This document shows positions 32,441 to 36,072 of a stretch of 64,000 nt of DNA, in pieces. Origin of the DNA: Novosphingobium barchaimii LL02 (GTDB taxonomy: Bacteria > Pseudomonadota > Alphaproteobacteria > Sphingomonadales > Sphingomonadaceae); contig NZ_KQ130452.1 of the NCBI RefSeq assembly GCF_001046635.1, forward strand, positions 670,668-734,667, in the 5' to 3' direction. Made by a program: the position numbers and the translations under genes. Under the pieces are notes generated by a model. It did not search any database. It was not told where the DNA came from and saw only the letters and a program-made list of their open reading frames with translations. The stretch's first letter is position 1. Every line of letters begins with the position of its first letter.

Positions 32441-33850
32441 TCAAAGTGACGTAAAACGGCCCAGTTCACGCTCGGAGAGACGCGCCTGGATACGCAGCAG
32501 AGGCCCCTCCTCTCCTTCGCCCGCATCTTCCTCGGCCACGACTTCGCCGCGGGCGTGGAGGAAGGCAAGGCGCTGGCCATCGGCGGCCGGGATCACGAAG
32601 CTGTAGACCTTCGAACCCAGCGTCAGCGTGCGGCTGACGACGGCCAGCATATCGTCACAGCCCTCTCCGGTCAGCGCTGAGACGGGGATGATAGTCTCGC
32701 CGTCACGGTGCGACATCGCTTCGCGCAGCGCTTCGATCTGCTCGGGAGCAAGCAGGTCCCACTTGTTCCAGACCTCGATGATCGGGATCAAGGGAGCGGG
32801 CCCCTCCTCTTCCTCATCGTCGCGGCCCCAGCCTATGACGCGGTCATCCTGTTCCTTGCGGCGCAGGGCCCGTTCGTCGATCTTCGGCTCCATCACGCCA
32901 AGGTCGGCAAGAATGTCGAGAACCTGACGTTTCTGGGCCTCGGTATCGGGATTGGCCATGTCGCGAACGTGGACGATGACGTCAGCGGCGGTCACTTCTT
33001 CCAGGGTAGCGCGAAAAGCGGCGACGAGCTGGGTCGGCAGGTCCGAGATGAACCCCACGGTGTCCGACAGGATCGCCTTTTCGAGACCCGGCAGACGGAC
33101 TGCGCGCATCGTCGGGTCCAGCGTGGCGAAGAGGAGGTCTTCCGCCATGACTTCCGCGCCGGTCAGGCGGTTGAACAGGGTCGATTTACCGGCATTGGTA
33201 TACCCGACCAGGGCGACGATCGGCCAGGGCGCCTTCTCGCGCCTGTCGCGGTGCAGGCCGCGCGTGCGGCGGACCTGTTCCAGTTCGCGGCGGATCTTCG
33301 CCATGCGGTCGCGGATCAGGCGGCGATCCGCCTCGATCTGGGTTTCGCCCGGGCCGCCGAGGAAGCCGAAGCCGCCGCGCTGACGCTCAAGGTGGGTCCA
33401 GCTGCGAACAAGGCGACCAGCCTGGTAATCGAGGTGAGCGAGTTCGACCTGCAGACGGCCTTCCGCCGTCGCCGCGCGTTCGCCGAAGATTTCCAGGATC
33501 AGCCCGGTGCGGTCGATGACCTTACGCTTGAGCTTTTCTTCCAGATTGCGCTGCTGGATCGCGGTGAGCGAGCCATCGACGATGATCAGCTCGGCTTCAT
33601 GCAGCGTGCAGGCGACCGAGATGTTCTGGATCTGGCCTTCGCCGAACAGCGTGGCGGCGCGCGGTTCGCGGATCACGATGGCCATCGCTTCGACCACTTC
33701 CAGCCCGATCGCAAGGGCGAGGCCCTTTGCTTCTTCCAGCCGGGCATCAACATCAAGGTCGGCCATCTGGCCCCGAGGGCCACGCATTTGCGGATAAACG
33801 ACGAGGGCACGCGCACCGCGCGTGACCTCATCCATAAGTTCGTCGTTCAA
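32441..33850 (-). CDS. hflX: GTPase HflX, ribosome-associated
   Basis: The 469-residue TRAFAC GTPase has an N-terminal HflX domain (GLALAIGLEVVEAMAIVIREP), a long coiled coil, and a G domain. The G domain has GYTNAGKSTLFNRLTG (G1), DTVGFISDLP (G3) and NKWD (G4). HflX binds 50S subunits and rescues stalled or dimerised ribosomes after heat stress. The first in-frame start is TTG 33850, with ATG at 33835 as an alternative. It lies 27 bp after hfq in the conserved hfq-hflX order. Confidence 0.94.
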   Translation of the reverse strand: MNDELMDEVTRGARALVVYPQMRGPRGQMADLDVDARLEEAKGLALAIGLEVVEAMAIVIREPRAATLFGEGQIQNISVACTLHEAELIIVDGSLTAIQQRNLEEKLKRKVIDRTGLILEIFGERAATAEGRLQVELAHLDYQAGRLVRSWTHLERQRGGFGFLGGPGETQIEADRRLIRDRMAKIRRELEQVRRTRGLHRDRREKAPWPIVALVGYTNAGKSTLFNRLTGAEVMAEDLLFATLDPTMRAVRLPGLEKAILSDTVGFISDLPTQLVAAFRATLEEVTAADVIVHVRDMANPDTEAQKRQVLDILADLGVMEPKIDERALRRKEQDDRVIGWGRDDEEEEGPAPLIPIIEVWNKWDLLAPEQIEALREAMSHRDGETIIPVSALTGEGCDDMLAVVSRTLTLGSKVYSFVIPAADGQRLAFLHARGEVVAEEDAGEGEEGPLLRIQARLSERELGRFTSL

Positions 33851-33877: not shown

Positions 33878-34483
33878 TCAATCGTCGGCTTCCTCATGCG
33901 CCTGAAGGTCGACCGGAGTCACGGGCTGAATCGTCGAAACGGCATGCTTGTAGGCAAGCTGTACGTACCCTTCGCGTTCCAGCAGCATGCAGAACAGGTC
34001 GTATGCTGCGACGCGGCCCTGAAGCATGACGCCGTTGATGAGGAACATCGTCACCTGCACGCCGGCGTTGCGGATGCTGGAAAGGAACACGTCCTGCAGG
34101 ACACGCAGCTTCTTCGCGCTTTCCGAGCCGTTCGAGAACTGGCGCGCATCGACCGGGGTCGACGGCATGATGGTCGAGATCGCATGCTTGTAGACGAGCT
34201 GAGACTGGCCGTCGCGGCGCAGCAGGATCGAGAAATTGTCGAACCAGGTAACGATGCCCTGGAGCTTCACGCCCTTGACCAGAAACATGGTGACCGGGGT
34301 CTTGTTCTTGCGCAGGAGATTGAGGAACTGGTCCTGAAGGTTCTGTCCCTTGCCTGCGGCGGGCGCTGCAGGTGCCGACGTACCGGCGCTTACCGGAACT
34401 GCGGCGTTTACAGCGACTTCAGCCGGCTCAGCGGCAGGTGCCGGAGTGGGCTTGGGGCGCGCCGTGAGAGTTCGACCAGCCAT
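33878..34483 (-). CDS. hfq: RNA chaperone Hfq with two tandem Sm domains
   Basis: Canonical Hfq is about 80-100 residues, but this protein has 201. After a 45-residue Pro/Ala-rich N-terminus, Sm domain 1 spans about 47-111 ([15 protein letters not shown] at 81-84, YKHAIST at 98-104). Sm domain 2 spans about 127-191 ([15 protein letters not shown] at 161-164, YKHAVST at 178-184). The two are spaced exactly 80 residues apart, joined by a 15-residue linker. Both keep the proximal YKH uridine-binding motif, while only domain 1 keeps the FDxF sequence. A ring of three chains is an attractive inference. It acts as sRNA-mRNA matchmaker and lies between ntrX and hflX. Confidence 0.95.
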
Positions 34484-34668
34484 TGTATTCTCCTTCTTTT
34501 TGGCGGCCGCTTATGCGGTCCGCGATCTGGCGCCGGATTCCCGGGCGCCGTTCTCGAATCAGAAACTACCGATTTGCTGCAGTGCAGTAAACGGCATTTT
34601 TGTAGCAAAAATGTTACAGCGCTAAAATTATCGTCCTGAAGGGCGCACTGATTGCAGTTTCCGAATCG
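34484..34668. promoter_or_regulatory. Upstream region of hfq
   Basis: The 185-bp gap before hfq is AT-richer than its surroundings. On the minus strand it holds TGTAACATTTTTGCTACA, an inverted repeat with one mismatch. A separate hfq promoter and an operator here are plausible, but neither is proven. Confidence 0.4.
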
Positions 34669-36072
34669 TCAGAGCGCTTCGTCAACGTCTGTTTCGTCCT
34701 CGCGGCGTTCCGACATGCCAAGTAGCTTGAGCTTGCGATGAAGCGCCGATCGCTCCATCCCGATGAAGGCGGCCGTTTTAGAGATATTCCCTGAAAACCG
34801 CCGGATCTGGACGCGCAGGTATTCGCGTTCGAAGCTTTCGCGGGCTTCACGTAGCGGCGCGCTCATCATCACGGTGGCGCCGGCGTCCGCCCCTCCCCGG
34901 CTGTTGAAAATTTCCGGCGGCAGCATGTCGCCCTCGATCCGCGCCAGCTTTTCGCGCGGGGCCATGATGACGGTGCGTTCCACCACATTGCGCAACTGGC
35001 GCACGTTGCCAGGCCATTCGTAAGCCTGAAGCGCGGTCATCGCCTCGCTGCTGACCTGCGGCGGGGCCACGCCCTGTTCGTTGGCATAGCGGGCGAAGAA
35101 GTGGTCGATCAGTGCGGGAATGTCGTCGCGGCGCTCACGCAGTGCGGGAATGGAAACCGGGACCACATTGAGGCGGTAGAACAGATCTTCGCGGAAGCGG
35201 CGTTCGGCGATCTCTTTCTCGAGGTCGCGCGAGGTGGAGGAGACCACGCGAACGTCGACACGGATCTGGCGGCTGCCGCCAACCCGCACGAAGGCCTGAT
35301 CGGTCAGCACGCGCAGGATGCGCGCCTGGGTGGAGAGCGGCATGTCGGCCACTTCGTCGAAATAGAGCGTACCGCCGTCCGCCGTTTCCAGCAGACCGGG
35401 GCGGATCAGGGCGCCGTCCGCCTCTTCACCGAACAGTTCCTGCTCGAAGCGTTCGGGGGTGATGCGAGCGGAATTAACGCTGACGAAGGCGTTGTCGGCG
35501 CGCGGGCTCCAGGCGTGGAGAAGGCGTGCGGCCACTTCCTTGCCCGAACCTGCGGGGCCGGTGATCAGCAGGCGGCTGCCGGTGTTGGCGATGCGCTTCA
35601 GCGTGGCGCGGACCTGGTTGATCGCGCCGCTGGAGCCGGTGAACTCCTCCGATCCGGTGAAGCCCTGACCCTGCTTGAGCTGCGCGTTCTCCCGGCGCAA
35701 GCGCTCGGTCTCGGTAGCCCGGCCGACGAGGTGGAGCAGTTTCTCGGCTTCGAACGGCTTTTCGATGAAGTCCACCGCGCCGCGGCTGATCGCGGCGACC
35801 GCGGTGTCGATGTTGCCGTGGCCCGAGAAGATGATGACCGGCAGTTCGGGTTCGCGCGATTTGATCGCGTCAAGTACCTCAAGGCCGTCCATCGGGCTGC
35901 CGTGAAGCCATACGTCAAGCAGGACGAGCGACGGGCGGCGCGCGTCGACCGCGGCAAGCGCAGCCTCGCTGTCGCCGGCAGTGCGGCATTCGTAGCCTTC
36001 GTCGCTCAGTACGCCGGCGACCAGTTCGCGGATATCGCGTTCATCGTCGACGATCAGGATTTCGAGTGCCAT
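34669..36072 (-). CDS. ntrX: Nitrogen regulation response regulator NtrX
   Basis: 467 residues. Receiver domain with Asp53 in [13 protein letters not shown]+ domain with Walker A GPAGSGKE (172-179) and Walker B GGTLYFDE (233-240), and a Fis-type HTH at the end ([24 protein letters not shown]). The GAFTGA sigma-54 contact loop expected near 216-226 is absent; the sequence reads [13 protein letters not shown]. It should therefore work without activating sigma-54, perhaps as a repressor or sigma-70 regulator, as proposed for NtrX of other alphaproteobacteria. It is paired with the NtrY kinase directly upstream. Confidence 0.95.

Follow-up and report, generated by a model that had tools for sequence, protein, structure and literature searches.

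The window, as we call the whole 64,000-nucleotide stretch of DNA analysed here, carries on its minus strand a tandem hfq gene flanked by hflX and ntrX. The features are as follows.

33878..34483, minus strand: tandem hfq gene with profile matches, ATG start, 201 amino acids plus stop
34490..34495, minus strand: ribosome-binding site AAGGAG, just 5′ of the hfq ATG
34346..34483, minus strand: Pro/Ala-rich N-terminal extension, a TLxARP-type motif followed by variable Pro/Ala-rich sequence
34151..34345, minus strand: Sm domain 1 (D1), residues 47–111, of the usual alphaproteobacterial Hfq type, with the full basic rim, K28 and K31 (E. coli numbering)
34106..34150, minus strand: inter-domain linker, residues 112–126, partly predicted as helix
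33911..34105, minus strand: Sm domain 2 (D2), residues 127–191, U-pocket and distal-site residues kept, basic rim patch mostly gone, M31 and Q63
33881..33910, minus strand: short acidic C-terminal tail, residues 192–201
32441..33850, minus strand: hflX (GTPase HflX), directly downstream of hfq
34669..36072, minus strand: ntrX (nitrogen response regulator), directly upstream of hfq

An earlier note on this DNA described two complete Sm domains, each with a YKH motif, in one chain of 201 residues. PF17209 indeed matches the frame at 33878–34483 in two stretches (185.4 bits, E 1.2e-55, cut-off 27), and both Sm domains contain YKHA. The match to TIGR02383 scores 175.8 bits against a cut-off of 61.7. 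By alignment, YKH and the U-pocket residues Q8, F42, K56 and H57 are found in both domains. The NCBIfam tandem Hfq model NF010691 is matched over positions 13–175 of its 176 at 299.5 bits (cut-off 270), and an Rfam scan of the window at gathering scores returned one tRNA and nothing else.

Two smaller peculiarities named in that note fare differently. FDNF in D1 had been read as a departure from canonical FDQF, but N occupies this place in 31 of the 32 single-domain Hfqs of the order and also in Caulobacter, so FDNF is the norm in single-domain relatives and is ruled out as a special feature. The N-terminus is long as described, yet its length is a lineage-specific trait; with the start codon picked by ribosome-site score, it is shorter than 20 residues in 50 of 148 core tandem proteins. 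The TLxARP-type motif lies upstream of D1 in 83 of these 148 and in 48 of the 80 named ones. The linker, counted from P64 of D1 to Q8 of D2, has 22 residues here and 21–23 in 143 of the 148.

The gene is an orthologous Hfq at the ntrX-hfq-hflX locus of a Novosphingobium-like bacterium. The presence of hfq beside hflX is a common rather than a defining arrangement, and an hflX match follows downstream in the same direction at all 80 named tandem loci and all 32 single-domain loci of the order. ntrX precedes hfq at 79 of the 80 tandem loci, and the flank (up to 1.5 kb) gave no ntrX match at 31 of the 32 single-domain loci. ntrX adjoins hfq in the tandem clade, with a spacer at 34484–34668 in the window, and also at the single-domain locus L116. 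The locus may have been rearranged ahead of the duplication.

The tandem form is already in print, as the earlier note had suggested for Novosphingobium. Yang et al. 2010 reported Zymomonas mobilis Hfq with two Sm-like domains, likewise in six other Sphingomonadales, and already posed the question whether three chains suffice for a ring (PMC2877685, in the part consulted). A 2012 paper, referring to earlier work, mentions two hfq-like copies for N. aromaticivorans (PMC3474761, in the part consulted). Functional work, which the earlier note took to be rare, does exist: under stress, hfq mutants of Z. mobilis show changes in growth or expression (passages of PMC2877685 and PMC9797736). We found no work on the structure, oligomeric state or individual domains of a tandem Hfq in the literature searched, which included parts of the Zymomonas papers and few subscription papers.

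The family is recognised as NF010691 / PRK14091 (Z. mobilis ZMO0347) with the same two-domain layout, to which the window protein adds the long Pro/Ala N-terminal extension. All 95 members of our alignment A1, the window protein included, match NF010691 at E ≤ 1e-10. No solved tandem Hfq structure occurs among the 35 and 50 PDB sequence matches listed, none of them matched in more than one stretch, and the best 50 matches listed in the fold search are all single-domain Hfq chains. The best PDB match is Caulobacter crescentus Hfq (6gwk) both by sequence, to D1 at 114.7 bits, and by fold, with a TM score of 0.96 by target length. It shares WFDNF, the basic rim and the acidic tail with tandem Hfq but has one domain per chain and six identical units.

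The earlier note held that an assembly artefact would become more likely if relatives lacked the duplication. The two-motif layout is present in 80 of 80 named relatives, with the YKH motifs 76–81 residues apart and the closest one (Novosphingobium sp. 18050) 96% identical. Of these relatives, 75 are labelled Sphingomonadales and five are not, one of the five being labelled Actinomycetota. The contig L009 bears the label Actinobacteria bacterium 21-64-8 and has an hfq like that of Novosphingobium (79% identity); it is probably a mislabelled bin. In the genomes of two close relatives (L001 and L002), Hfq is matched twice, once by each half of the tandem gene, and nowhere else.

Since the 80 relatives had been retained for likeness to the whole protein, an order-wide sample was drawn too. 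Hfq is found in 190 of its 196 genomes and gives two matches in 109. We viewed 75 of the 109 by locus (60 of them picked from long-frame rows among the matches listed, the remaining 34 genomes lying outside the count), and 74 have both domains in one frame, the exception (G003) having one single-domain gene and, where a contig ends, a fragment. An artefact of assembly, or a duplication limited to a single genome, has virtually no likelihood against the 80 tandem relatives and the 74 one-frame loci, and the artefact is ruled out. The tandem Hfq is real and widespread within one clade.

Beyond the order, the survey covered class and phylum samples of Pseudomonadota and 14 control genomes. Hfq occurs in 319 of 385 class-sample genomes, seven with two matches: five belong to the order sample (G001, G007, G014, G021 and G027), one (G256) has two separate hfq genes and one (G503) has two contig-edge fragments. 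In the phylum sample, 295 of 398 genomes have Hfq and 25 have two matches, of which 18 are in the order sample and the other seven have separate genes. A tandem Hfq was not found outside the order in either sample, within which a too-divergent second domain would escape scoring. Two Hfq domains per genome thus occur in other Pseudomonadota also, but as separate genes in all eight cases checked outside the tandem clade (G256 and the seven). Five genomes of 6–7.8 Mb (L161–L165) hold second, more divergent Hfq genes in open frames of 130–255 amino acids, stop to stop.

The domain tree comprises 55 D1, 55 D2, 36 single domains and E. coli Hfq, with few columns and many inner forks unresolved. D1 forms one group (100/99) and D2 another (99/98), each in 100% of 200 bootstrap trees. 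D1 is placed among the alphaproteobacterial single Hfqs with weak support (85/62), and D2 sits on a long stem. In the HflX tree, 42 tandem-bearing loci make one clade (97/94), and the single-domain locus L116 is its sister (99/98). The simplest account would be a single in-frame duplication in the clade ancestor, after which the domains show no sign of having been homogenised; the tree requires no loss. L116 has the order ntrX-hfq-hflX and the states N28, K31, K17, K19, W38 and M63, and it makes a good pre-duplication comparison for the tandem Hfqs.

For comparing the domains, 154 tandem proteins were divided into 148 core members and six divergent ones treated apart, all in E. coli Hfq numbering. 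The comparison set was 32 single-domain Hfqs of the order, 30 of them the best-scoring of the sample. The roles given here to Hfq positions are in part general background and otherwise come from passages of PMC10628458, PMC11770335, PMC9228748 and PMC6561178.

Most contact residues are alike in the two domains. In the proximal pocket, Q8, Y55, K56 and H57 are present in 148/148 of both D1 and D2, and F42 in 148/148 D1 and 147/148 D2. Position 41 is N in D1 (143/148) and L in D2 (135/148). On the distal side, eight positions were compared with the single-domain consensus, and they match it in 1184 of 1184 D1 cells and 1183 of 1184 D2 cells. Agreement with single-domain Hfqs at 11 ring-interface positions is similar (0.71 for D1 and 0.66 for D2); over positions 6–64, D2 is less conserved (0.62 versus 0.79), and at the rim the values are 0.94 for D1 and 0.43 for D2.

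The rim charge separates the domains. Over positions 16, 17, 19, 46a and 47, whose rim roles come from E. coli and Caulobacter rather than from a sphingomonad, the net charge is +5 in all 148 D1 and all 32 single-domain Hfqs, versus −2 to +4 (mean +0.39) in D2. The mean net charge over Q8–P64 is +4.86 for D1 and −0.93 for D2, and the D2 tails are acidic, with net charges of −2 to −16. RNA annealing is reported to increase with the count of rim arginines (a passage of PMC10628458). In Caulobacter Hfq, E75 in the tail of one protomer forms bonds with R49 and S39 of its neighbour (PMC6561178, section 5). The equivalent of this R49 is E in 116 of the 148 D2.

The distal face differs at two positions. 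D1 has K28 (148/148) and K31 (147/148), D2 has N28 (147/148) and M31 (148/148), and the single-domain Hfqs of the order, 32 of 32, have N28 and K31, as does L116. As far as the alignment reaches, this lysine exchange between D1 and D2 is fixed. One protein (L050, 4067–4573) is the sole tandem Hfq with Q31 in D1 and also the sole one with K28 in D2; this pairing fits an alternation of the domains but comes from one sequence, which has other unusual changes too.

The two Sm domains are therefore non-equivalent, as the earlier note proposed, by their profile stretches, fixed residue differences and separate tree groups. Its further suggestion that the proximal and distal faces are specialised is mostly not borne out, for in the 148 core proteins D1 and D2 alike retain the main contact residues, and it survives for L41 in D2 and the 28/31 exchange. 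Judged by sequence, the clear specialisation of D1 and D2 sits on the lateral rim, plus these two features. The fixed rim asymmetry and the 28/31 exchange are, at this level, the new part; we found no description of either for tandem Hfq in the literature searched, which had few subscription papers in it.

The divergent six (L124, L125 and L127–L130) come from genomes of 2.1–2.3 Mb and are strongly changed in both domains. In D1, W38 is G in all six, F42 is Y in five and H57 is Q in two. In D2, Q33 is lost in all six and Y55 is F in five, so the conservation of the D2 sites is not universal. K28 and R31 in D1 and N28 in D2 are present in all six, and residue 31 of D2 is non-basic in five. Their linker has 16 residues, and their tails are short and hardly acidic. 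For D1 position 42 and D2 position 55, there are 149 F-Y and five Y-F pairs; the exchange is seen in the divergent subclade alone, and 12 of 56 single-domain Hfqs have Y-Y, so we give it no weight.

We then consider how the chains assemble. AlphaFold2 models of the window protein (pTM 0.85, pLDDT 89.3) and of L130, 45% identical to it and with the 16-residue linker (pTM 0.87, pLDDT 92.6), are predicted to set D1 and D2 in one confident mutual placement within the chain, judged from the scores alone rather than from the geometry. A clean D1-D2 covariation signal was not found, the top 30 pairs being 15 within D2, 13 between D1 and D2 and two within D1, mostly at variable positions and at an effective number of ~37. 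Three chains, the number suggested in the earlier note, probably form a ring of alternating D1 and D2 with three armed and three disarmed rim patches.

Alternatively, six chains could assemble as a pair of homohexamers, one ring made of D1 and the other of D2, tethered to each other and each acting as an ordinary Hfq or a modified one. The similar interface agreement of the two domains means that either could self-assemble, and a linker of 16–23 residues could also join stacked rings. However, the D2 ring would set acidic tails beside a rim without a basic patch, the D1 ring would have K28 and K31 in every unit and the D2 ring neither, and the two pTM values argue for one fixed D1-D2 placement per chain. 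These points, all three indirect, make the paired rings rather unlikely.

The distal lysines bear on the same choice. A passage of PMC10628458 draws Q52, Q33 and L32 of the distal site from one subunit and T61, L26, I30 and Y25 from the adjacent one. It puts N28 in the same second A-site without spelling out its subunit, and K31 is not mentioned there. On our own reading of this passage, residue 28 of one unit would face residue 31 of the next. If so, alternation gives one lysine per site, whereas separate rings give two or none.

Another reading has D1 alone making the ring and D2 as a tethered regulatory or autoinhibitory module, an elaborated form of the acidic Hfq tail. The near-neutral D2 with most of its rim patch missing would suit this role, and for Caulobacter and E. 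coli autoinhibition of annealing by acidic tails has been proposed (in the part of PMC6561178 consulted). A dangling module, however, would need none of the Q8, Y55, K56, H57 and distal residues that are near-invariant in the 148 core D2, which renders it distinctly improbable. Linkers crossing between rings, to give six-chain double rings (each ring with three D1 and three D2) or open polymers, are less probable still; such domain-swapped higher assemblies are compatible with everything seen, but the linker length is near-constant and the within-chain placement confident.

For the alternating ring of three chains, we suggest the following course. An in-frame duplication would have fused two Hfq units into one chain, and three such chains would make a closed ring of six units, with D1 and D2 alternating. 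In this ring, the six proximal U-pockets and the six distal A-sites would all be retained, and the complete basic patch of the rim, which speeds the annealing of RNA, would remain on the three D1 units only. Each linker may run along the rim of the D2 in its own chain, where most basic residues are lost, and each acidic D2 tail may reach the basic D1 rim of the next chain, three tails serving three rims. The Caulobacter contact between tail and neighbour suggests both paths, over D2 for the linker and onto the D1 rim for the D2 tail. We infer the alternating ring, these two paths and the number of three rather than six active rims.

A comparable step is known for the eukaryotic Sm/Lsm heteroheptamers, in which a homomeric Sm ring became heteromeric by duplication and divergence, as in Lsm1-7/Lsm2-8 (PMC7480870, in the part consulted). 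These have separate genes, seven units and distant sequences, whereas tandem Hfq has two paralogous units per chain and probably six units per ring. The whole reading, which we hold tentatively as a quite possible one, is a covalent alternating heterohexamer with armed and disarmed rims, D2 rims covered by linkers and distal sites of two alternating kinds that the reciprocal 28/31 lysine exchange would have produced, a cis parallel to the Sm/Lsm passage from homomer to heteromer.

In an ordinary Hfq, the required number of rim patches and the breaking of symmetry are hard to test, since any mutation alters every unit at once. A tandem Hfq occurring in nature has its stoichiometry fixed and permits mutations in one domain at a time. 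Should the rim asymmetry prove functional, the sphingomonads would be a natural experiment in which half of the annealing patches have been disarmed clade-wide.
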